Assembly (NCBI GenBank): GCA_030042795.1
Contig: JASHYZ010000107.1
Coordinates: forward strand, 1 to 20,007
From: Terriglobia bacterium
Lineage (GTDB): Bacteria; Acidobacteriota; Terriglobia; UBA7540
DNA: 20,007 nt
Direction: 5' to 3'
Positions 1,726 to 19,773 of the stretch are shown here, piece by piece. The first letter of the stretch is position 1; every line of letters starts with the position of its first letter. The notes under the pieces are model-generated. The model was given only the letters and a program-made list of their open reading frames with translations, ran no database searches and was not told the origin of the DNA. The translations under genes were made by a program, and so were the position numbers.

Positions 1726-4263
1726 ATGGCTACAGGCACGATCGACGGTATCGCAACGAAGAGAGCCGCGCGTAAGTGGGCCCTGGCGCTGGCGTACGGC
1801 CTGGCGGCTCTGGTGGCCATTCTGATCGTCACCACTTTGTGGGCTTGGTGGCGCATCCACGCTTGCTTGCCACAACTCGACGGCGCCATTCAGGTGAAAG
1901 GTCTAAGCACGCCGGTCGAAGTGCTGCGGGACGCTCGGGGCGTGCCGCATATTCGCGCGCATTCCATTGAGGACGCCTACTTCGCACAGGGGTACGTCAC
2001 CGCGCAGGATCGCCTCTGGCAGATGGACTTGAGCCGTCGCCTGGCGAACGGCGATCTTTCCGAGATCTTCGGGGCGCGCGCTCTCGAGCGCGATATCGAA
2101 AATCGCAAACTCGGTTTCCGCCAGGCGGCTGAGCGGGGCGCGGCGGAACTGTCGCCCGATTTCCAGCGTCTGATCTCGGCATACGCGAACGGCGTCAACG
2201 CCTTCATCACCACTCACCTCAATCGGCTTCCGATTGAATTCGTCGTGTTGAGCTACAAGCCCCGCCCCTGGAGCGAAGCGGATTCTCTTTCTGTTGCGCT
2301 CAACATGGCCAAGATGCTCAACACCTCCTGGCAAGGCGACTTATTACGCGAGCGCGTGCGCGCCAGGCTCGCTCCCGAGCTCTACGCTGATCTCTTTCCG
2401 CAGGACTCGCCGCTGGAGCGTCCGGTGGCGGAGCCGGTCGCAGGTCCTGCTCACGCGGTCGGGTCCGACGCCGCCACGAACAGCCAACCCTCGCTTTTGC
2501 CGCCTGGGCTTGACGCTCATCAAGGTCCGGGCAGTAGTCTCGATCCCTTGCTTGGCGCTCTCACTCCTGCCGGTGATGAAGGCGCCTTCGTGCTCGGCAG
2601 CAACAACTGGGTGATCAGTGGCACTCACACGGAGTCCGGGAAGCCGCTGCTCTCCAATGACCCTCACATCGCGCATAGCGTTCCGAGCGTATGGTACATG
2701 ATGCAAATGGAAGCTCCCGGCCTTGACGTGTCAGGTGTCACTCTGCCGGGCGCGCCTTCGGTGATTATCGGGCACAATCAGCGCATCGCTTGGGGCATGA
2801 CCAACACCGGGCCTGACGTTCAGGACCTTTACGTGGAGAAGTTCAACCCCTCGAACCCCGATCAGTACCTGCACAATGGCCAGTGGGTGGAGGCAGAAGT
2901 TCGCCACGAGACCATCAAGGTGAGAGGTGCGGGCGATTACAAGTTAACGGTCCGCACGACGCGGCACGGTCCGATTATTTCCGATGAGGGCGGTCGGGCC
3001 CTCGCTCTTTGCTGGACCGCGCTCCAGCCGCACGCGCTGCAATTCCCGTTTCTCGCCATCAACCAGGCGCGCAACTGGCAAGAGTTTCGAGACGCCATCC
3101 GGCACTTCACCGGACCCGAGCAGAACATGGTTTACGGCGACGTGGACGGCAACATCGGCTACTATGCACCTGCCTGGGTGCCGGTGCGCCGTGAAGGCGA
3201 TGGCTCCGTGCCAGAGCCGGGAGACAGTGACACTTACGATTGGACGGGTTATATTCCGTTCGATGACTTGCCGCACGCTTACAATCCGGCGAGCGGCCTG
3301 ATTGCCACCGCCAACAGCCGGGTGATTCCGGCAGACTACCCTTACTTCTTCACGCACGTTTGGGCGCCGCCTTTTCGCACAGCACGAATCTTCCAACTGC
3401 TTGAGTCGGGAACGCCGGGGCGCTCCTGCGCAACCACGGCTTCACTCGATGTGGCAGCCTCCTCCAGACCTGCCGATTCGCAGAAGGCTGCCTGCTTCGA
3501 CGTCTCCGACATGCTCAGAATTGACATGGATATCCATCCGCTCGACGACGCCTGGCTGACGCAAGCGCTCGTCCGCGCGGCACAGGCCCATGCACCTGAT
3601 CGCGATGACGCCCGTCAGGCGATCAAGATCCTGCAGCAATGGAATGGCGAGGCGACTGTGGACTCTGCCGCGCCCTTGATCTGCGCCAACACATTCACGG
3701 CCCTGCGAGAGCGTTTGCTGGAGCCGAAGCTCGGCGCGGAGCTGGCCAGGGAGAACTGGTCTCTCAGCGAGATCTTCATCGAAGACGTGATCGATCACCA
3801 ACTCACCCGCTGGCTTCCGCCCACGGATACCGATTTCAACACTACGCTGATGGCCAGCCTGGACGACGGCTTGACGCGCATCGAGGCGCGCCTGCCGGGA
3901 CGCGGCGTCGAGTCCTGGCACTGGGGTGACACAATTCCCCTCACCTTCCATCACCCGCTCGACTCCGTGCCGCTCGTCGGCCACCGGTTTGACATTGGGC
4001 CCTATCCGCAATTCGGAACAGCGAACAGCATCAAGGCCACGACGCCCGGCGCGGGACCGTCGATGCGCATGGTGGTCGATCTCGCGAATCTCGATAGCTC
4101 TGTCCAAAACCTGACGCTCGGCGAATCCGGCCAGATCACGAGCCCATACTATTCTGACCAATTCCAGGCCTGGTACCGCGGCAGCAGCTTTCCCATGCTC
4201 TTCAGCGATAGGGCCGTGGATGAGGGAGCGGTGCACAAGCTTACGCTTACGCCCAGGCAGTAG
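1726..4263 (+). CDS. Penicillin acylase family protein (peptidase S45, Ntn hydrolase)
   Basis: This 845-residue protein is a full-length member of the penicillin amidase family, which hydrolyses amide bonds of N-acylated compounds (beta-lactams, acyl-homoserine lactones or other acyl amides). Residues about 16-40 form a signal or membrane anchor, so it acts outside the cytoplasm. The alpha chain begins with PVEVLRDARGVPHI. A spacer rich in Pro, Gly and Ala (about 225-285) precedes GSNNW at 291-295. Ser292 is the expected autoproteolysis site and N-terminal nucleophile of the beta chain. Asn530 in the TANSR motif is the expected oxyanion residue. The C-terminus has the usual GESGQITSPYYSDQ and W-x-x-G-S features. 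One oddity is an insert of about 30 residues at 561-592 with two cysteines. The ATG at 1726 has only a weak ribosome site. True substrate unknown. Confidence 0.92.
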   Translation: MATGTIDGIATKRAARKWALALAYGLAALVAILIVTTLWAWWRIHACLPQLDGAIQVKGLSTPVEVLRDARGVPHIRAHSIEDAYFAQGYVTAQDRLWQMDLSRRLANGDLSEIFGARALERDIENRKLGFRQAAERGAAELSPDFQRLISAYANGVNAFITTHLNRLPIEFVVLSYKPRPWSEADSLSVALNMAKMLNTSWQGDLLRERVRARLAPELYADLFPQDSPLERPVAEPVAGPAHAVGSDAATNSQPSLLPPGLDAHQGPGSSLDPLLGALTPAGDEGAFVLGSNNWVISGTHTESGKPLLSNDPHIAHSVPSVWYMMQMEAPGLDVSGVTLPGAPSVIIGHNQRIAWGMTNTGPDVQDLYVEKFNPSNPDQYLHNGQWVEAEVRHETIKVRGAGDYKLTVRTTRHGPIISDEGGRALALCWTALQPHALQFPFLAINQARNWQEFRDAIRHFTGPEQNMVYGDVDGNIGYYAPAWVPVRREGDGSVPEPGDSDTYDWTGYIPFDDLPHAYNPASGLIATANSRVIPADYPYFFTHVWAPPFRTARIFQLLESGTPGRSCATTASLDVAASSRPADSQKAACFDVSDMLRIDMDIHPLDDAWLTQALVRAAQAHAPDRDDARQAIKILQQWNGEATVDSAAPLICANTFTALRERLLEPKLGAELARENWSLSEIFIEDVIDHQLTRWLPPTDTDFNTTLMASLDDGLTRIEARLPGRGVESWHWGDTIPLTFHHPLDSVPLVGHRFDIGPYPQFGTANSIKATTPGAGPSMRMVVDLANLDSSVQNLTLGESGQITSPYYSDQFQAWYRGSSFPMLFSDRAVDEGAVHKLTLTPRQ

Positions 4264-4294
4264 GCAGCGGCCTCTACCCCAACCGATCCTGTTC

Positions 4295-4819
4295 TCACTT
4301 CGTGGGTTCCATTTGCAAGGCATTGTTGAAACGATTGAAGTAGTTGGACAATCCCGCGACGGCTGCGATCTCCACGATTTCGCCTTCGTCGAAATGGCGG
4401 CGCAACTCGGCAAACATTTCGTCGGAGATGGCGTGAGAGTCGCGTGTGAGTTGTTCGGAGAACTGCAGCGCCGCGCGTTCAGGCGCAGCAAACACTTCGA
4501 AATCGCCGCCTTCCAGCGCGGCCATTTCCGCGTCCGTCGCGCCGAACCGCCTTGCCAAGGCAGTGTGCGAATTCAGTCAGTACTCGCAGGCGTTGAGATA
4601 AGAGACGCGCACCGAGATCATTTCCTTCAGCTTGCGGGAGACTGTGCCGGTGTTCATCACGTTGAAGAAGTGCTGATTCAGGGTCCGCATGATCTCCGGC
4701 CGGTGCGCCACAGTGCGGAACATATTCGGGACGTTACCTCGTTCGCGCAGAAACTGGTCGAAGACCTGGCGCGAAGCGGCATCAACCTGATCGGGAGGGA
4801 GTTTGGAGAGGCGAGGCAT
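4295..4819 (-). CDS. AhpD-like (carboxymuconolactone decarboxylase family) selenoprotein, Sec at in-frame UGA
   Basis: Two apparent ORFs (4819-4577 and 4558-4295) lie in the same frame and are separated by one UGA (complement of 4577-4579). Read through it, they give one 174-residue protein of the AhpD/carboxymuconolactone decarboxylase fold, a peroxidase-type redox family using a CxxC pair. The family signature is intact: E66, then 12 residues to C78, then C78-E-Y-U81, then three residues to H85. This matches the Glu, Cys, Cys, His spacing of AhpD, with UGA in place of the resolving or attacking Cys. Sequence on both sides is family-like (NVPNMFRTVAHRPEI before, HTALARRFGATDAEMAAL after). 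A SECIS-like hairpin follows. AhpD-like CxxU selenoproteins are established in bacteria. The ATG at 4819 is forced by an in-frame TAA 12 bases upstream. No Shine-Dalgarno is seen; see the -10 box. The alternative is a pseudogene with a nonsense mutation or a sequencing error at exactly this codon. It follows the PpiD-like gene by 70 bp. Confidence 0.82.
4546..4564 (-). promoter_or_regulatory. Candidate bacterial SECIS element
   Basis: On the mRNA strand the bases 13-31 after the UGA form an 8-bp stem: ACUGCCUU pairs with AAGGCGGU (one U-G pair) around a GGC triloop. The apical loop starts 20 bases after the UGA and begins with GG. The bacterial SECIS consensus, as generally described, asks for a small apical loop with a G in its first two positions, roughly 16-37 bases downstream of the UGA, so the geometry fits. 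A further 3-bp stem (CGC with GCG, mRNA bases 8-10 and 35-37, out to 4540) can extend it below an internal loop. The hairpin lies inside the coding sequence, as bacterial SECIS elements must. SelB binding is inferred. Confidence 0.7.
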
Positions 4820-4827
4820 GAATAGGA

Positions 4828-4889: not shown

Positions 4890-6836
4890 TTAACTACTCG
4901 TGTTGTTATACGAGGCCACGAGTTGCTTGAGCGCGTCCGCGTTCATCTTCAGCTTGCCCTCGCGGATCAACACTTGCTTCAGGTTTTGCCGGTAAACTTC
5001 CCAGGCCAGCGATCGCTTCTGGTCCAGCAGCTCCTGGCGAATCTGCCCCTGCTGGCTGGCAAAGGTGGACTCATCCGCGGGCGTGTGGGTAAGCACTTGG
5101 AACACAATTTGGTTGCTGCCCACTGCCACCACGCCGCTCGTCTGTCCAGGGCTCAGTGTAAAAGCGTCTCCGAGCTCGCTGCCTGAAATCAGGTTATCCA
5201 CCGTATCCTGCCGCGTGAAGTCCTTGCTCTCTTTCACGGTCAGGCCCAGGGACGCGGCCACCTTCTTGAAGTCTTCGGTCTTGGCCTTGGCTGCCAAGTT
5301 CTTCGCCTTCTCCGAGGCCAGCACCTTCGCCTGGTCGTTGCGGTAATCTTGCTCCACCTGGGTACGCACTTCGTCAAGCGCCGCTGTGTGCGCGGGGACG
5401 TCCTGAGCAAGCTGTGTAATCACGGCGCCCTTGGGAATCGTCACCGGCTGGCCGACCTCGCCCGGGGTGAGCTCGAAAGTCAGGTTCTGCAAGCCTTCGT
5501 TCACACCCAGGTCAGGAATGGCCTGTCCGAACTTGAAGAGCGAGGTCTGCGCGGCCTTCAGGCCGAACTTTTCGGCGACCGCGTCAAAGTGCTGCGGGTC
5601 CTGCTTGGCCGCCTGTTCCACCTGATCGGCGAGCGCCGCCTGGGCCTCGTCGAGCTTCTGCTTCTCGATCGTAGCCTGAATGCTTCCCTTCACCTCATCG
5701 AAGGTCTGGACGTGCGCGGTTTGCTTGTCGAAAACCTTGATGATGTGAATGCCGTACGTGGTGGTTACCAGACCGCTCACCTGGCCGGGCTGCAAAGCGA
5801 ACGCGGTATCCTCAAACTCCTTCACCGTCTGGCCGCGAACGATCCATCCCAGGTCACCGCCATTCGAAGCGGTCGTGTCCTCGGAATACTTCTTGGCCAT
5901 TTCGGCGAAATCTGCGCCCTTCTGGATCTGGCTGAGCACGTCCTGAGCCGTCTGCCGGATCTTCGCGACCTCCGCCGGGCTCTTATCTGTGGTCTTAAAG
6001 AGGATGTGGGCGCACTTCACGCGCTCCGGCACGCGGTACTCGTCCAGATGCTGCGAATAATAAGCTCGCAGATCGTCGTCGGAAATCTTCACTTGCGCGC
6101 GCACGTGGTCAGCATCAATCAGAATGTAACGCAGCGAGCGCTGTTCGGGCAGCTTGTAACGGTCGCGGTTGCTCGCAAAGTAAGCCGCAAGAGCCTGGGG
6201 CGTTAACTGCACGTCTTTGGTGAAGGTGGTTGCGTCAAAGAAGACGTAGGCGATTTTCGCCTTCTCGTTGCGCGTGACGAACTCCTGGTGAACCTCGGCG
6301 GGAGTCACTTGCACGGCGTCGGTTACCACCTGCTTGAGCTTGTCGGTCAGAAGACTGTCGCGAAGTTGGGCCTCGAACTGCGCCACGCTCATGCCTGTGG
6401 CTTGCTCGATCACGTTTTGGTACTGATCCACTCCGATGAAGACGCCGTTATTGCTGAGGCCAGGGTAAGTGCGGATGGCCGCGGCCAATTCCTGGTCACT
6501 CACCGCGAGTCCCAGCCGGCGCGCCTCCACCACCTGGGCCTGATCGAGCACGATCTGGTCAAGCACGGTGGGGGCGAAGCGCGCCATCAGAGCCTGCGCC
6601 TGCGAACTGCTTCCCAGAGGGGAGTTCCGGAACTGTGCCTCCAGCCTGCGTTGAACCTCTTGCGTGGTGATATTGACGCCGTCCAGGGTGGCCAACACGT
6701 TCGGCTGAGCGTTACTGGTGTCGCCGCCCGGAATGGGCGCCAGCGTAATCACCATGCCGAGCGAGACGATGCCGAGAAAGAAGATCAAGAGATACTTCAT
6801 GATCTTGTCCCGGTTTCTGCGGAAAAACCTATACAT
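4890..6836 (-). CDS. PpiD/SurA-like membrane-anchored peptidyl-prolyl isomerase and chaperone
   Basis: This 648-residue protein has a short basic N-terminus, one membrane helix at about 14-34, and a long periplasmic part, the topology of PpiD. A SurA-type N-terminal chaperone region spans about 45-270. It is followed by a parvulin (rotamase) domain at about 272-370, with KCAHILFKT, FAEMAKKYSEDTTASNGGDLGW and GLVTTTYGIHIIKV. A second rotamase-like stretch around 435-500 looks degenerate, then a helical C-terminal region follows. It should assist folding of exported and outer-membrane proteins at the periplasmic face of the inner membrane. The length fits PpiD (about 620 residues). The start at 6836 has AGGAG (complement of 6842-6846) 5 bases upstream and its own promoter. 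It lies between the TPR gene and the selenoprotein gene, all on the minus strand. It could also be called a SurA_N domain protein; the overall class is secure. Confidence 0.9.
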   Translation of the reverse strand: MYRFFRRNRDKIMKYLLIFFLGIVSLGMVITLAPIPGGDTSNAQPNVLATLDGVNITTQEVQRRLEAQFRNSPLGSSSQAQALMARFAPTVLDQIVLDQAQVVEARRLGLAVSDQELAAAIRTYPGLSNNGVFIGVDQYQNVIEQATGMSVAQFEAQLRDSLLTDKLKQVVTDAVQVTPAEVHQEFVTRNEKAKIAYVFFDATTFTKDVQLTPQALAAYFASNRDRYKLPEQRSLRYILIDADHVRAQVKISDDDLRAYYSQHLDEYRVPERVKCAHILFKTTDKSPAEVAKIRQTAQDVLSQIQKGADFAEMAKKYSEDTTASNGGDLGWIVRGQTVKEFEDTAFALQPGQVSGLVTTTYGIHIIKVFDKQTAHVQTFDEVKGSIQATIEKQKLDEAQAALADQVEQAAKQDPQHFDAVAEKFGLKAAQTSLFKFGQAIPDLGVNEGLQNLTFELTPGEVGQPVTIPKGAVITQLAQDVPAHTAALDEVRTQVEQDYRNDQAKVLASEKAKNLAAKAKTEDFKKVAASLGLTVKESKDFTRQDTVDNLISGSELGDAFTLSPGQTSGVVAVGSNQIVFQVLTHTPADESTFASQQGQIRQELLDQKRSLAWEVYRQNLKQVLIREGKLKMNADALKQLVASYNNTSS

Positions 6837-10499: not shown

Positions 10500-10561
10500 A
10501 GCCCGGCTCTCCACCGAGGGCGTGAAGGCAAAAGGCAAGAGTCAAGAGGCAATAGGGAATA

Positions 10562-10652
10562 GGCTCTTGGCTCTTGGCTCTTGGCTCTTGGCTCTTGGCT
10601 CTTGCCTCTTGGCTCTTGGCTCTTGGCTCTTGGCTCTTGGCTCTTGCCTCTT
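10562..10652. repeat. Heptanucleotide tandem array, 13 units
   Basis: Thirteen head-to-tail 7-base units fill these 91 bases. Units 1-6 and 8-12 are GGCTCTT and units 7 and 13 are GCCTCTT, so the variant recurs every 42 bases. A degenerate copy in inverted orientation precedes the array: AAGAGTCAAGAGGCAA at 10537-10552 can pair over 16 bases with 10602-10617, with only one G-U type pair. On the minus strand the array reads AAGAGCC and lies in the 198-bp spacer between the proS stop and the PBP1b start. It translates as a repeated KSQEPRA in one frame, but it has no gene-like start or end. The unit length and absence of spacers rule out CRISPR. Confidence 0.95.
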
Positions 10653-10679
10653 CCCTCGCCATTTCCTATTCGCCACTCC

Positions 10680-12374
10680 CTACATCGCAAGCTGTTGCTT
10701 CAACGCCTGCACGGCCTCCGTCAGCTTAACCTCCTGCGCCTGCTTCGTGGCGCGCACGAAAATCTCGGCCCGCCCCTGCTCGAAGGTGCGCCGGCCCAGC
10801 GTGAGCCGGAACGGCACACCGATCAGATCGGCATCCTTAAATTTGACGCCCGGACGCTCATCTCTGTCGTCAAATAACACGTCGATGTGCTCGCTCTGCA
10901 GTTCCGTGTAAAGCTCTTCGGCGGCGGCGCGCAACTTCTCGTCATCCATGTTGGCAGCAGTCAGAATCACCTCGAAAGGCGCAATGGCCTTGGGCAGAAA
11001 CATTCCGTCCTTGTCGTGATTTTGCTCGACGGCCGCCGTCAGCACGCGCTCTACCCCGAGACCGTAAGAGCCCATCACCAGCACGATCTCCTTTCCACTG
11101 GCGTCGAGCACCGTGGCGTGCATGGCTTCGGAGTAACGCCGGCCCAACTTGAACACGTGGCCGAGTTCCACCGCCTTGATGACCTCGAGCGGCTGGCCGC
11201 AGCGCACGCAGGGATCGCCGGCCGCCACCAGGCGCAAATCGTGATACTCAGCCTTGAAGTCGCGGCCGGGCGTCACGTGGCGCAGGTGAGTGTCATCGCG
11301 ATTGGCGCCCGCGATAAGATCGCGCCGGCCTTCGAGCGCTTTGTCCGTCAGGATGCGAACACCCATCAGGCCCACCGGCCCGAGCGAGCCCAGGTTGGCG
11401 CCATGCAGCTCGAAGGCTTCCTCTGGCGTTGCGGGACGAAACGTACCGGTTCCGAGCGCCGTGGAGAGCTTGATCTCACTCAGCGTGTGATCCCCGCGCA
11501 TTAGGATCACTACGGGCTGACTCTGGGCCACATACACCAGCGTCTTGATCATCCGGGACGGGCTCTCACCGGTGAATCGCGCCAGGTCGTCGATGGTCTT
11601 CAGGCCCGGAGTGGGGAAGGCTTCGGGCGCCTCGTTGCCGGCCGGGTCTTCTACCGGCGCCAAAGCGGAAATTGCCTTTTCCAGATTCGCGGCGTAGCCG
11701 CACGCCGAGACCGCGATGAAATCCTCTCCGGAGTCGGTGGGCGCGGTGAACTCGCCGGAAAACGTTCCGCCCATCATCCCCGAAAAGGCTTCCACGTAAA
11801 GAGCCCGTACGCCGCAGCGCTCGCAAATCCGGCGATACGCGTGCACGTGCTTGTCGTAGCTCACGTCAAGGCCGGCCTCATCGATGTCGAATGAGTACGA
11901 ATCTTTCATAAAGAATTCCCGCAGCCGAAGCAGGCCCGACTTGGGCCGGGGCTCGTCGCGAAACTTCTCTTGGATTTGATACCAAATCTGGGGCAATTGT
12001 TTGTATGACCGCAACTCGCTACGCGCGATGTTGGTCATCTCTTCTTCGTGCGTGATGCCCAGGCAGATATCGTGCTGGGCACGGTCCTTGAACTTGAAGA
12101 TCACGTCCACCGCGTCCCAACGTCCGCTCTCCCGCCACAACTCGGCGGGATTGAGCACGGGCAGATGAAATTCCTGCGCTCCGATGGCGTCCATCTCCTC
12201 GCGGATGATCTGCATGATCTTCAGCAGCGACCTCCGCGCCAGCATCAGGTGAGCGTAAATTCCGGCAGACACTTGCCGGATGTAGCCCGCCCGCAGCAGC
12301 AGCCGGTGGCTGGGCGCTTCGGCTTCGGCCGGTACCTCGCGCAGAGTAGGAATAAAGGCTTGGCTCCAACGCAT
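10680..12374 (-). CDS. proS: Prolyl-tRNA synthetase
   Basis: This 564-residue class II synthetase charges tRNA-Pro with proline in the cytoplasm. It is the bacterial form with the editing insertion. The N-terminal catalytic part has the PSHRLLLRAGYIRQVSAGIY signature (about 21-40), the GITHEEE loop (107-112) and motif 2 with FRDEPRPKSGLLRLREFFMKD (138-158). The inserted editing domain, which removes mis-charged alanine, spans about 225-400. A CVRCG segment follows, then motif 3 (GLGVERVLTA) and the anticodon-binding domain. The length is normal. I chose the ATG at 12374, which gives the conserved MRWSQAFIPT start and has GAGGA about 7 bases upstream. A start at 12443 would add 23 unconserved residues. 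One small oddity is HLML where most relatives have a LPL sequence after SAGIY. It has its own promoter about 110 bases upstream. Confidence 0.96.
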   Translation of the reverse strand: MRWSQAFIPTLREVPAEAEAPSHRLLLRAGYIRQVSAGIYAHLMLARRSLLKIMQIIREEMDAIGAQEFHLPVLNPAELWRESGRWDAVDVIFKFKDRAQHDICLGITHEEEMTNIARSELRSYKQLPQIWYQIQEKFRDEPRPKSGLLRLREFFMKDSYSFDIDEAGLDVSYDKHVHAYRRICERCGVRALYVEAFSGMMGGTFSGEFTAPTDSGEDFIAVSACGYAANLEKAISALAPVEDPAGNEAPEAFPTPGLKTIDDLARFTGESPSRMIKTLVYVAQSQPVVILMRGDHTLSEIKLSTALGTGTFRPATPEEAFELHGANLGSLGPVGLMGVRILTDKALEGRRDLIAGANRDDTHLRHVTPGRDFKAEYHDLRLVAAGDPCVRCGQPLEVIKAVELGHVFKLGRRYSEAMHATVLDASGKEIVLVMGSYGLGVERVLTAAVEQNHDKDGMFLPKAIAPFEVILTAANMDDEKLRAAAEELYTELQSEHIDVLFDDRDERPGVKFKDADLIGVPFRLTLGRRTFEQGRAEIFVRATKQAQEVKLTEAVQALKQQLAM

Positions 12375-16636: not shown

Positions 16637-19600
16637 TTATGACTTAGGAAGAAGCATCTGCGTGTTTGCGGCATCCTGCTTGATTTGCGCGACAAGTTCG
16701 TGTCCGTTCAGTAGCTCTGCCACCAACGTGTCAAGTTGATCGAGCTCCGCCTGAAGTACCCTCCGCGCCGCTTGGCGTGCTTGCGCTGCCCTTCCCCCGA
16801 TCTTCGATCTCCACTTCAGGATCTTCACGCGCCCCTCACGTGCCACTTCGGCGATTTGCCGGTGGAGACGCCTTTTGGGATCGAATAGAGGAATAGGGCA
16901 CACTTCAAAGGGCCGACGATGGATGTCGCGCTCCCCCTGAAGACCCTGAGACTGGTATGGCTTTATCGCGTCGTTGACGATTGCGCTGTTGAGAACTCCA
17001 ACCAGGTAGAGCGCATGTTCTTCGGAGTCCGCGTAATACCGATACGTGACGTGGTCCGCCACAAAGCCTTGAAGCTTCAACTCACCGATCTGCCGGTGCT
17101 CCTGTGGGGTGATATAGATAGCCACCAAATTCGTACCTGACTTGTTGTAGAGCACGACGAACTTTGCCTGAGGATTTTGGCCTGTAATTTTCTGGTCGTA
17201 ATTTAAATACTCGTTGAGGCTCGGCTGATCCTTCTTCTTTTTTTCGTTCCAGATGTTCCCTGCATTGTCCACCCAGTCGGATGCACCCACCGCGCCCTCG
17301 GCCAGAATTTCTTCATGGCAAAGCATGACAAATCGCCCCTCTCTAGCCGCGACTGGAAGCACGAGGAGCCGGAGCTGTCGAACGGCGAAGGGTAGCAGAT
17401 CCTCGGCTAATGCCGTTCCAAAGAGAAACTCCTCCTCGACCCGCCCCTCCACTTCTACTTTCCAGGGCTCCTTGGCGCCCGCACTCGCCGCCCTTGACGT
17501 GCGCAAGAAAGGGATTCTCACAACCAGCGGGCGATCTGACGGGGGTTCGACAAACCACAAAGCACGTGGAACCAGCGTGGCGCCTTGAAAGACTTGCGGG
17601 AAATAGGGCGAGCGTACCTCCGGCAGCAAAAGGAACGACCAGGAAGCCTTCTGGGATTTCAACAATCTCCTCGCGTGTTCCCACGACAAATTCCGCTGGC
17701 CGCGAGGCAACTCACCGCTCCAGCAAGTGACCGGGATGCCCTCCGCGCGGACGCGCGGTTTGCGGATCAGCACGCAAGTGGGAACCTTGAAGAGACCTTT
17801 TACGTCGCCGAAGTCATTGATCGTTGTGAAGCCCTGTTTCTGAAAAGTCAAATGCTGCTTAGCCGGAAGAATAACAGATCGCGGCATTACAAACCCCATC
17901 GTTCCGCCATCACGCAAGAACTCGTGCACGCAATGGGCAAAGAAAACACTGGAGGTGTCGAGTTGGGTGAAGAGCTTCCGATCCGTTCTCTCCAGCAGGT
18001 TGTAGCTGAAGGCCAGCTCTTTGATCCTGGCCTTGTAGGCTGGGTCTTGAACGTCGCGCAGAGAGAGCCAGGGCGGATTGGCAACAATCACGTCTGACTT
18101 CTGGCGGCGCAGGTAGGCGGGCCGGTAGGCGTTCTTCAGGATGAAAGCCCATACCGTGTCGCGGTTCGCTTGAATCAAGCGAACCATGAGTGCGAAGTTT
18201 TCACGCCACAGAAAGACTTCATGTGGCGAATAGCCAGCGAGCAGCTTGGCGAACCCTTGCCCGGCACGATCTTCCGCCTCTTTCGACACCGCGCCGCGCC
18301 GGGCCAATAGGGTCATCTTATCGATCAAGCTGTCCAGGTCGCGTCCCTGGTCAAGACTTTCCAACGGGACATAAAAGTGTTCAGTGTCGCCGACCTTCAC
18401 GGCTAAAGCCCTCTTCTGAGTGTCCTCGCCGGTCATCAATGTGTCGGCAAGATAGACTCGCAGAAACACCTCCTCTGAGTACTTCGGAAGCTCGGCTGAT
18501 AGCGCAAGAAGGATGTTGGCCTTGGCCATTAAAGCCGCTACCGGATGAACATCGATGCCCGTTATAGATTCAAGCGCGGTTTTCACCAGGGTGTTTCCCT
18601 TCAGGCCTGCGGCGCGGAGGCGGCGGACAGCGCAGAAGAGGAAAGTCCCGGAGCCGCAGGCAGGGTCCAGCAGAGTGCCGCGCCGGTAGTCGATCTCGTC
18701 TAGCGTAAGCTCGGCCAGCCAATCCGGAGTGTAAAATTCACCGAGCTGTTGCCGGTCGCCCGATTCCACCATTTCCTGGTAGAGCACCTTGAGCAAGTCC
18801 TCATCCACCTGGGACCAGTCAAATTCGCTTAGGCGGCGAAAGAGATTGGCGAAAAACTCAAAGAACGCGGGCTCGGCATCGGTCGCGAGTCCCCATGAGA
18901 AGAAGTCTGCCTCGGCGAGGTTTCGAATGCCTTCATTGCGAAAGAACTCACCATCGATGAGTCCGCGGTAAAGTGCGGCGCCATGTTGCCGTTCCCGAAA
19001 AACAGCCAGGGTCACGATGGCCCTTGAGACCATCGTCAAATACGTGTGTCTCAGGAACAAATCCTCGTCATCGGGAGGCGCGCCATACACTTTCGCCAAA
19101 AGGGCGTTCCATTCCCGGAACTTAACCTGCACACTGGAAAGCTCCTTCACCGAGCGATAGGCCGAGCTGAGCGCTTGCCGGCTTCGGTTGAAAACAACGC
19201 TGCCTGGGCCGAAGCGGACCACGACCTCGCCTGAGAGTGGCCGAATCTTGCGGCCGGCCGCCAACAGTTCATCAAGCTGGTTATAGGCGGCGACTGGCAT
19301 CTCAGATTCGAGCCTAAAGGAACGGACTGTTTGCGGCTTCGCCGTCTCCAAATCGAAATCAAAGACTTCAAAATCGAGGCCGTCGGTCACGGCCGCGATG
19401 TAATCGCCGGGGTTCTTCTGTGATTGGAAGTACTTCGTGAGCTCGCTGACGGCATCCTGACGTTCGCGCTCCAGGTCGGTCTTGAACTCGAAGATCACGA
19501 ACCTGTAGAAAGCGTCAATTCGTCCCCGCGCCGACGCGGCCTTCACCTTGTGCTCTAATTCCACTTCATCAACCTGAATGTTGAAGGCCTTTCGAAGAAA

Positions 19601-19729
19601 ATCCATGAAGAGCGCACGGCGCTGATCGTGATGCTTTTTGCGGTTAACGGCGTCTTTGGCGTGCTCACAATAGTCTTGCAGGTATTCTGCGAAGCGGTCC
19701 GGGATGGGAATGACGGACTGTCTCAACAT
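16637..19729 (-). CDS. Single-chain restriction-modification enzyme (type IIG-like, nuclease plus N6-adenine methylase)
   Basis: This 1030-residue protein combines cleavage, methylation and target recognition. The N-terminal part (about 30-130) has a PD-(D/E)xK type nuclease core: D72 in GRIDAF, then E81-F-K83 in VIFEFK. A helical linker precedes the N6-adenine methylase core, with GEFYTP (330-335), SAM-binding motif I LDPACGSGTF (about 354-363) and catalytic NPPW (551-554). The part after about 650 should hold the target recognition domain, ending with VCPIPLFDP and a helical tail. The order nuclease, methylase, specificity is that of Eco57I-like type IIG enzymes. I chose the ATG at 19729; GGAGG lies 12 bases upstream, slightly far, and a TTG at 19756 would add 9 residues. 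No separate restriction, specificity or regulator gene lies in the window. It could instead belong to a larger defence cluster beyond 20007. Confidence 0.88.
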   Translation of the reverse strand: MLRQSVIPIPDRFAEYLQDYCEHAKDAVNRKKHHDQRRALFMDFLRKAFNIQVDEVELEHKVKAASARGRIDAFYRFVIFEFKTDLERERQDAVSELTKYFQSQKNPGDYIAAVTDGLDFEVFDFDLETAKPQTVRSFRLESEMPVAAYNQLDELLAAGRKIRPLSGEVVVRFGPGSVVFNRSRQALSSAYRSVKELSSVQVKFREWNALLAKVYGAPPDDEDLFLRHTYLTMVSRAIVTLAVFRERQHGAALYRGLIDGEFFRNEGIRNLAEADFFSWGLATDAEPAFFEFFANLFRRLSEFDWSQVDEDLLKVLYQEMVESGDRQQLGEFYTPDWLAELTLDEIDYRRGTLLDPACGSGTFLFCAVRRLRAAGLKGNTLVKTALESITGIDVHPVAALMAKANILLALSAELPKYSEEVFLRVYLADTLMTGEDTQKRALAVKVGDTEHFYVPLESLDQGRDLDSLIDKMTLLARRGAVSKEAEDRAGQGFAKLLAGYSPHEVFLWRENFALMVRLIQANRDTVWAFILKNAYRPAYLRRQKSDVIVANPPWLSLRDVQDPAYKARIKELAFSYNLLERTDRKLFTQLDTSSVFFAHCVHEFLRDGGTMGFVMPRSVILPAKQHLTFQKQGFTTINDFGDVKGLFKVPTCVLIRKPRVRAEGIPVTCWSGELPRGQRNLSWEHARRLLKSQKASWSFLLLPEVRSPYFPQVFQGATLVPRALWFVEPPSDRPLVVRIPFLRTSRAASAGAKEPWKVEVEGRVEEEFLFGTALAEDLLPFAVRQLRLLVLPVAAREGRFVMLCHEEILAEGAVGASDWVDNAGNIWNEKKKKDQPSLNEYLNYDQKITGQNPQAKFVVLYNKSGTNLVAIYITPQEHRQIGELKLQGFVADHVTYRYYADSEEHALYLVGVLNSAIVNDAIKPYQSQGLQGERDIHRRPFEVCPIPLFDPKRRLHRQIAEVAREGRVKILKWRSKIGGRAAQARQAARRVLQAELDQLDTLVAELLNGHELVAQIKQDAANTQMLLPKS

Positions 19730-19773
19730 GACGTAGCTTGTCCTCCGGCGCGGCAAGGCCTGACCGGCAGGTT

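Follow-up and report, generated by a model that had tools for sequence, protein, structure and literature searches.

The window, by which we mean the whole stretch of 20,007 nt analysed here, carries on its minus strand a gene for an AhpD-like protein with one in-frame UGA, a SECIS-like hairpin behind that codon and a peptidylprolyl isomerase-like gene directly upstream. The features at the locus are:

4890..6836, minus strand: PpiD/SurA-like peptidylprolyl isomerase gene, directly upstream of the AhpD-like gene with a 70-nt gap
4295..4819, minus strand: AhpD-like (CMD, TIGR01926) gene, very probably a selenoprotein gene, 174 aa with TGA translated as U, Sec at residue 81
4622..4624, minus strand: codon of E66, the relay Glu, from translation and alignment
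4586..4588, minus strand: codon of C78, which opens the CxxU motif and is conserved as Cys in all 25 TGA loci of relatives
4577..4579, minus strand: in-frame UGA, codon 81, aligned with the second Cys of CxxC in relatives
4565..4567, minus strand: codon of H85, the relay His, from translation and alignment
4547..4563, minus strand: bacterial SECIS-like hairpin, 7-bp stem (one G-U), apical loop GGC at 4554-4556
4295-4297, minus strand: terminal TGA of the AhpD-like gene

Read on the minus strand from 4819 to 4295, the gene comprises an ATG start and 80 codons in all, the TGA, 93 further codons and the terminal TGA. A sequence-only reading of this DNA had described a 174-codon gene divided by a single in-frame UGA, leaving the strand unstated, and the minus-strand translation bore this out. 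The motif in the read-through frame is E66-x11-C78-x-Y80-UGA81-x3-H85, with E66, C78, the UGA and H85 all at the positions given by that reading and a Tyr at position 80; E66 and H85 were invariant in a 24-row alignment (A1). A longer, overlapping ORF on the plus strand (4220..4825, 201 aa) was judged to be an antisense shadow, because the CMD match and the homology found both sit on the minus frame. Further candidates for TGA read-through within the window lay mostly inside longer frames.

The read-through protein matched the Pfam family CMD (PF02627) with 69.3 bits; the 5′ half by itself still matched CMD (29.5 bits), and the 3′ half by itself gave no Pfam match at an E-value of 0.001. We assigned the protein to the NCBIfam family TIGR01926 (peroxidase-related enzyme, AhpD-like) on the basis of its score (89.8 bits, above the cut-off of 81.8), the E-x11-C-x2-C/U-x3-H relay and the AhpD-core fold of its model. 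This AF2 model, in which U81 was modelled as Cys, had a pLDDT of 94.2, and its best structural matches were the AhpD-core structures 2prr and 6k40 (TM 0.92). The best NCBIfam E-value, with a nearly full-length alignment, was that of NF053654 (YciW-related (seleno)protein), but the score, 91.8 bits, is far short of the cut-off of 310 and places the protein outside that family. AhpD proper (TIGR00777) was likewise rejected, at 19 bits against a cut-off of 191.95. The relay of Mycobacterium tuberculosis AhpD, Glu118-Cys130-Cys133-His137 in the part of the source available (PMC3141380), has the same spacing as that of the window protein, and the structures of M. tuberculosis AhpD aligned with the model at TM 0.55–0.61; a Streptococcus pneumoniae protein named AhpD (6e8l) matched better (TM 0.86–0.87, 14% identity). 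PA0269 of Pseudomonas aeruginosa (PDB 2ijc, 2o4d, 7xw1) has the same relay residues and an AhpD-like fold. The same partly available paper describes a Glu36/Cys48/Tyr50/Cys51/His55 proton relay for it (PMC3141380), and E66, C78, Y80, U81 and H85 of the window protein aligned with this relay at identical spacing. Unlike the window protein, PA0269 has Cys51 instead of Sec, and the same source reports weak peroxidase activity only.

Since standard gene prediction would overlook genes that contain a TGA in frame, the DNA of relatives was examined. Among the best 80 of 123 relatives from a species-genome collection, codon 81 was TGA in 25 loci and TGC or TGT in 55, so that the residue carried by close relatives at position 81, which the sequence-only reading had singled out as informative, is either UGA or Cys. 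The TGA loci came from 25 different genomes and none had a stop besides codon 81 (25/25), while column 81 was Cys in all 55 non-TGA loci. By record title, 18 of the TGA loci belonged to Acidobacteria, Acidobacteriaceae or Terriglobia, six to Bacillota (including the complete chromosome of Geosporobacter ferrireducens) and one to Planctomycetota. The UGA at this column goes beyond chance: it always occupies the Cys column and recurs in 25 other loci. Cys78 was kept in 25 of 25 TGA loci, whereas 38 of the 55 Cys81 loci have Thr in its place. L028, L030, L034 and 35 more Cys loci form a large acidobacterial group with TxxC instead of CxxC, the first Cys being replaced by Thr, and keep only the residue equivalent to Sec here. 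Cys or UGA is thus found throughout only at the second residue, which fits residue 81, as U or C, as the attacking one.

A search across the class was run on 399 genomes and gave a match in 358; these are partly the same genomes as in the 80-locus set, and the two sets are not independent, at least 16 of the top 50 rows being already present in the first. Twenty-eight of these top 50 matches contained exactly one stop, always TGA, and 22 were uninterrupted; no interruption by TAA or TAG occurred among the class-wide matches listed. In 20 class-wide stretches, which were picked for having one TGA and therefore test its position alone, the TGA fell at the CxxU column in 20 of 20 cases, down to 28% identity, and H85 was present in 18. 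Distant AhpD-like paralogues (L141-L156, ~28–42% identity) also had a TGA at the CxxU column, many of them with a hairpin-like stretch after it as judged by eye, and may represent several seleno-AhpD families within one class.

Differences by codon position were counted in nine of the 11 closest TGA loci, L007 and L012 being the two not used. Downstream of the UGA, differences at codon positions 1, 2 and 3 amounted to 0.18–0.31, 0.13–0.20 and 0.48–0.56, respectively, third-position differences being ~2.4 to 4.3 times those at the second position, with a similar pattern before the UGA. Constraint at the level of the protein therefore extends into its tail. Unrelated stops and decay after the UGA in close relatives, which had been put forward as the outcome that would speak against selenocysteine, left no sign in these data, with a third-position excess in all nine relatives. 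Plain ORF calling cuts the gene into two pieces, and the missing Pfam match of the 3′ half would likewise suit a pseudogene or a recent nonsense mutation, with the UGA ending a dead gene. We consider this very improbable: TGA stands at the same codon in 25 of the 80 loci (18 acidobacterial records, six from Bacillota and one from Planctomycetota), constraint persists after it, the hairpin described below follows it, and TAA or TAG interruptions are absent from the class-wide matches listed. At the family level, recurrence and downstream constraint refute a pseudogene. The gene that looks broken by a stop is very probably intact, its stop being read as selenocysteine in a redox active site.

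The hairpin downstream of the UGA is 17 nt long, begins 13 nt after the UGA and has a UGA-to-loop spacing of 20 nt; its stem (CUGCCUU/AAGGCGG, loop GGC) was found also as an inverted repeat. A bacterial SECIS model described in a review available in part (PMC13188914) has a loop of 3–9 nt, a stem of 4–16 bp, a G within the first two loop bases and a loop located 16–37 nt from the UGA, and the window hairpin agrees with it in loop, stem, loop G and spacing. The stem is fully paired (seven of seven) in 23 of 26 TGA genes (the 25 loci and the window), the loop always being GGC, as against one of 55 Cys genes, the exception being L004 (Fisher p = 6e-16, a value made too small by the relatedness of the sequences). 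The canonical hairpin was absent from three of the 26 TGA genes (L033, L035 and L044). In L035 (10001-10432), the TGA gene is short of ~28 residues in frame and the 3′ half of the hairpin is gone, which reflects either decay or assembly collapse.

Stem variants (CCGCCTT, CTGTTTT, CTGCTTT and CCGTCTT) were each matched by an altered partner strand. Across 29 TGA sequences, 92.6% of stem cells could pair, and 20 stem cells were changed on both sides, compared with a shuffled mean of 5.3; stem covariation was 0.298 versus 0.145 after shuffling and almost as high (0.265) when the strands were slid by +3, the contrast with all such shuffle controls being inflated by the relatedness of the sequences. 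No excess was seen in how many pairs had both sides changed (3 vs 2.8 shuffled) or in how many further pair types occurred (5 vs 5.8 shuffled). The SECIS alignment (A2) was made without the TGA genes L127, L129-L131, L133, L138 and L139, which are represented in the tree, and without six TGA loci that repeat earlier ones. Folding of the 61 nt around the UGA was ordinary (z = −0.45, with 55 of 200 shuffles at least as good), so that it is the particular hairpin, with its conservation, that carries the support. The energy of the window hairpin was equalled or bettered by 3.5–4.2% of synonymous recodings, and a 7-bp stem arose in at most 1 of 1000. An Rfam scan of the window returned nothing at gathering scores.

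A sequencing or assembly error is formally easy to envisage, TGA being one base away from TGC and TGT. It has, in our view, next to no probability, given that the same TGA codon occurs in 25 other genomes and that the window carries a hairpin which 54 of the 55 Cys genes are without.

Searches for selenocysteine machinery took in 38 of the 80 loci, namely the genomes of all 25 with TGA and of 13 of the 55 with Cys. Genome completeness was not given, and single absences of sel genes mean little in the counts that follow. Of the 25 TGA genomes, 24 had a tRNA-Sec (RF01852) match of at least 65 bits, 24 had SelA (PF03841) above 300 bits (in two pieces in G002 and from model position 80 in G011), 22 had SelB and 23 had SelD above their curated cut-offs. 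All 23 SelD genes contained one in-frame TGA of their own. The complete set of selA, selB, selD and tRNA-Sec was found in 20 of 25 TGA genomes, and selA and/or tRNA-Sec at full strength in all 25. At the same thresholds, six of the 13 Cys81 genomes had both selA and tRNA-Sec and seven had neither; machinery alone is therefore no predictor of the Sec form.

These thresholds bear on the counts. The limit of 65 bits for tRNA-Sec was adopted because weak RF01852 matches also turn up in control genomes (14 of 14; above the gathering score in five of 14 controls and in 35 of the 38 genomes), and the gap it uses (lowest counted 65.7 bits, next 52.9) was set after the scores were known. At the gathering score, five of the seven Cys81 genomes counted as lacking tRNA-Sec would pass, with 47.1–47.9 bits. 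For PF03841, 31 of 38 genomes score above the cut-off of Pfam; the 300-bit limit that was used excludes G004 (33.8 bits), and weak second SelA matches also occur in genomes with a full SelA, for instance G003, G009, G011 and G034. SelB and SelD were counted over curated cut-offs because weaker matches were present in every one of the 38 genomes. The 20,007-nt window itself yielded no tRNA gene.

A protein search returned 2165 matches, and in the best 120 of these the residues at positions 66, 78, 81 and 85 were ECCH in 72, ETCH in 42, ECWH in five and ECGH in one. The Trp (5/120) and Gly (1/120) at residue 81 are what callers would print if UGA were reassigned (to Trp, as in code 4, or to Gly, as in code 25), and a low-level read-through without selenium might also be imagined. 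We regard either as having a vanishingly small chance of being right. Seven of 12 window frames checked, this gene among them, terminate in TGA, and UGA is therefore not reassigned genome-wide; the column is filled by Cys, never by Trp or Gly, in 55 of 55 non-TGA loci, and Sec machinery is present in the genomes of relatives. In addition, the protein to which the TGA gene L012 sits closest in the tree is the Gly protein, P0006 (path 0.09, support 95). One Trp protein, P0009, pairs with the TGA gene L019 (support 88), and another, P0008, was placed in the tree without resolution. The Trp and Gly residues in these six of 120 database proteins are probably UGA codons misread by code 4 or code 25, as far as the protein sequences can tell.

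Taken with the UGA/Cys column, the hairpin that tracks the UGA and the lack of decay downstream, these results support the proposal of the sequence-only reading that the UGA encodes selenocysteine. The Sec reading of UGA 81 is strongly supported, and for the organism of the window itself we infer Sec insertion from this evidence.

The history of Sec and Cys at this position was followed in an unrooted tree obtained by a quick search, in which 42 of 97 inner branches are open and which served for nesting and minimum change counts only; its trait column was gapped in Sec rows and left unmasked in Cys rows. The labelled rows need at least three state changes, the direction of which is not given by an unrooted tree. 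The nearest Cys locus, L004 (66% identity), has TGT at codon 81. In L004 (3515-3550), a perfect hairpin stands behind this TGT codon. Together with its near-copy P0003 (99% identical), L004 falls inside a group of 32 rows with support 96, comprising 27 TGA rows, L004 and four database proteins, although its inner placement is weak. The MAG of L004 (G004) has SelB over the cut-off and a SelD without TGA, and its best SelA and tRNA-Sec matches reach 33.8 and 44.9 bits, respectively. The simplest reading is that L004 probably represents a recent change from Sec to Cys with a fossil SECIS. Two further Cys proteins, P0004 and P0005, group with the TGA gene L112 (support 80) and possibly mark a second Sec/Cys switch, judging by their protein sequences. 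The Sec/Cys switching record around the acidobacterial gene is unusually clear.

AhpD-like CxxU selenoproteins as such are not new. Their existence, given as known in the sequence-only reading, has been in print since the Sargasso Sea study of 2005 (PMC1088965), and the available parts of later sources list AhpD-like proteins (COG2128) in Alkaliphilus (2006 bacterial survey; PMC1794560), ‘AhpD-like 1/2’ selenoproteins in the GOS ocean metagenomes (2008; PMC2398784) and TIGR01926 with CxxU in a review table (2026; PMC13188914). The description of the gene as unannotated suits the locus in so far as plain translation splits the gene and the first half only keeps a Pfam match; it does not hold for the family, which is in print. 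With the published AhpD-like selenoproteins (COG2128/TIGR01926) the window protein shares, as far as those partial sources go, the CMD/AhpD family, Sec as the second residue of CxxU, a stem-loop after the UGA and widespread Cys homologues; what sets the window copy apart is that it comes from an acidobacterium and has a PpiD-like gene as its neighbour. For Acidobacteria, the available text of the 2006 survey counts four selenoproteins of three families (PMC1794560), and that of a deep-Sep paper counts three known selenoproteins in one acidobacterial genome (PMC12013277), the names not being given in either. In the accessible portions of the open-licence literature on selenoproteins of Acidobacteria/Acidobacteriota, no AhpD-like selenoprotein is named. 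The gene is therefore of a kind already known from other bacteria, and its acidobacterial copy is very probably a real selenoprotein.

The gene upstream (4890..6836) had its best NCBIfam match to PRK10788 (190.6 bits), all its isomerase matches being below their cut-offs. Within the available flanks of L001-L080 and at an E-value of 1e-15, a PpiD-like gene preceded the AhpD-like gene in all 12 testable close loci (L001-L010, L012 and L035); L011, which starts 113 nt upstream of the gene, is uninformative on its neighbour. The other acidobacterial loci of the 80 gave no PpiD-like match at E 1e-15, some of their flanks being short, and the Bacillota loci L020, L024, L029 and L032 have instead a PpiC-type gene ~2 kb downstream. 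In the Bacillota loci L020, L021 and L032, inspection by eye showed the AhpD-like gene followed by a similar 239–259-aa protein and a nitroreductase-like gene. The PpiD-like gene is a probable operon partner of the AhpD-like gene, and a functional tie between the putative selenoprotein and the PpiD-like chaperone is suggested as a lead by this gene order.

Elsewhere in the window, positions 10522-10690 form a repetitive stretch between two genes, in which short ORFs of either strand repeat the unit ‘AKSQEPR’ or ‘GSWLLAL’. At 16637-19756 on the minus strand lies a gene for a 1039-aa DNA methyltransferase-like protein, with weak matches, below cut-offs, to BREX-2 PglX (53.2 bits) and MAD2 (51.5 bits).

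The gene at 4295..4819 very probably encodes a 174-aa AhpD-like redox enzyme with Sec81, inserted by way of SECIS, SelB and tRNA-Sec, a five-residue relay, U81 as the putative attacking residue and C78 as the putative resolving one. In the mechanism we propose, the 17-nt downstream hairpin would act as the bacterial SECIS, and because of this UGA 81 would be decoded by SelB and tRNA-Sec with insertion of selenocysteine. In the folded protein, E66, C78, Y80, U81 and H85 would form a proton relay like that of PA0269; the U81 selenolate would attack a peroxide or a (mixed) disulfide, and the C78 thiol would then resolve U81 as a selenenyl-sulfide. A peroxidase or thiol-disulfide activity is predicted here only from the relay residues, and the attacking residue and the reductant of the enzyme are likewise putative.

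What this locus adds to the known family is the PpiD-like upstream neighbour, the switching between Sec and Cys, and the Trp or Gly at position 81 in 6 of 120 database relatives. Simple gene callers break the gene in two, and the catalytic residue of some of its database relatives has probably been misread. The link to the PpiD-like gene may give a first clue to the biological role of proteins that are labelled in databases only as ‘uncharacterized peroxidase-related enzyme’. As a tentative extension, to which we give a rather low probability, Sec might be the older state of a large acidobacterial AhpD-like family that underwent repeated Sec-to-Cys losses, and L004 would then show one such loss still under way. 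In the lineage of the window the selenoenzyme might, just as tentatively, be linked within one operon to a PpiD-like periplasmic chaperone and, instead of working as a peroxidase in general, serve the quality control of envelope proteins as a redox partner that depends on selenium. The family provides a natural series of Sec, Cys with a fossil SECIS and Cys within one bacterial group, and it thereby becomes testable in what sequence codon, SECIS and sel genes disappear.
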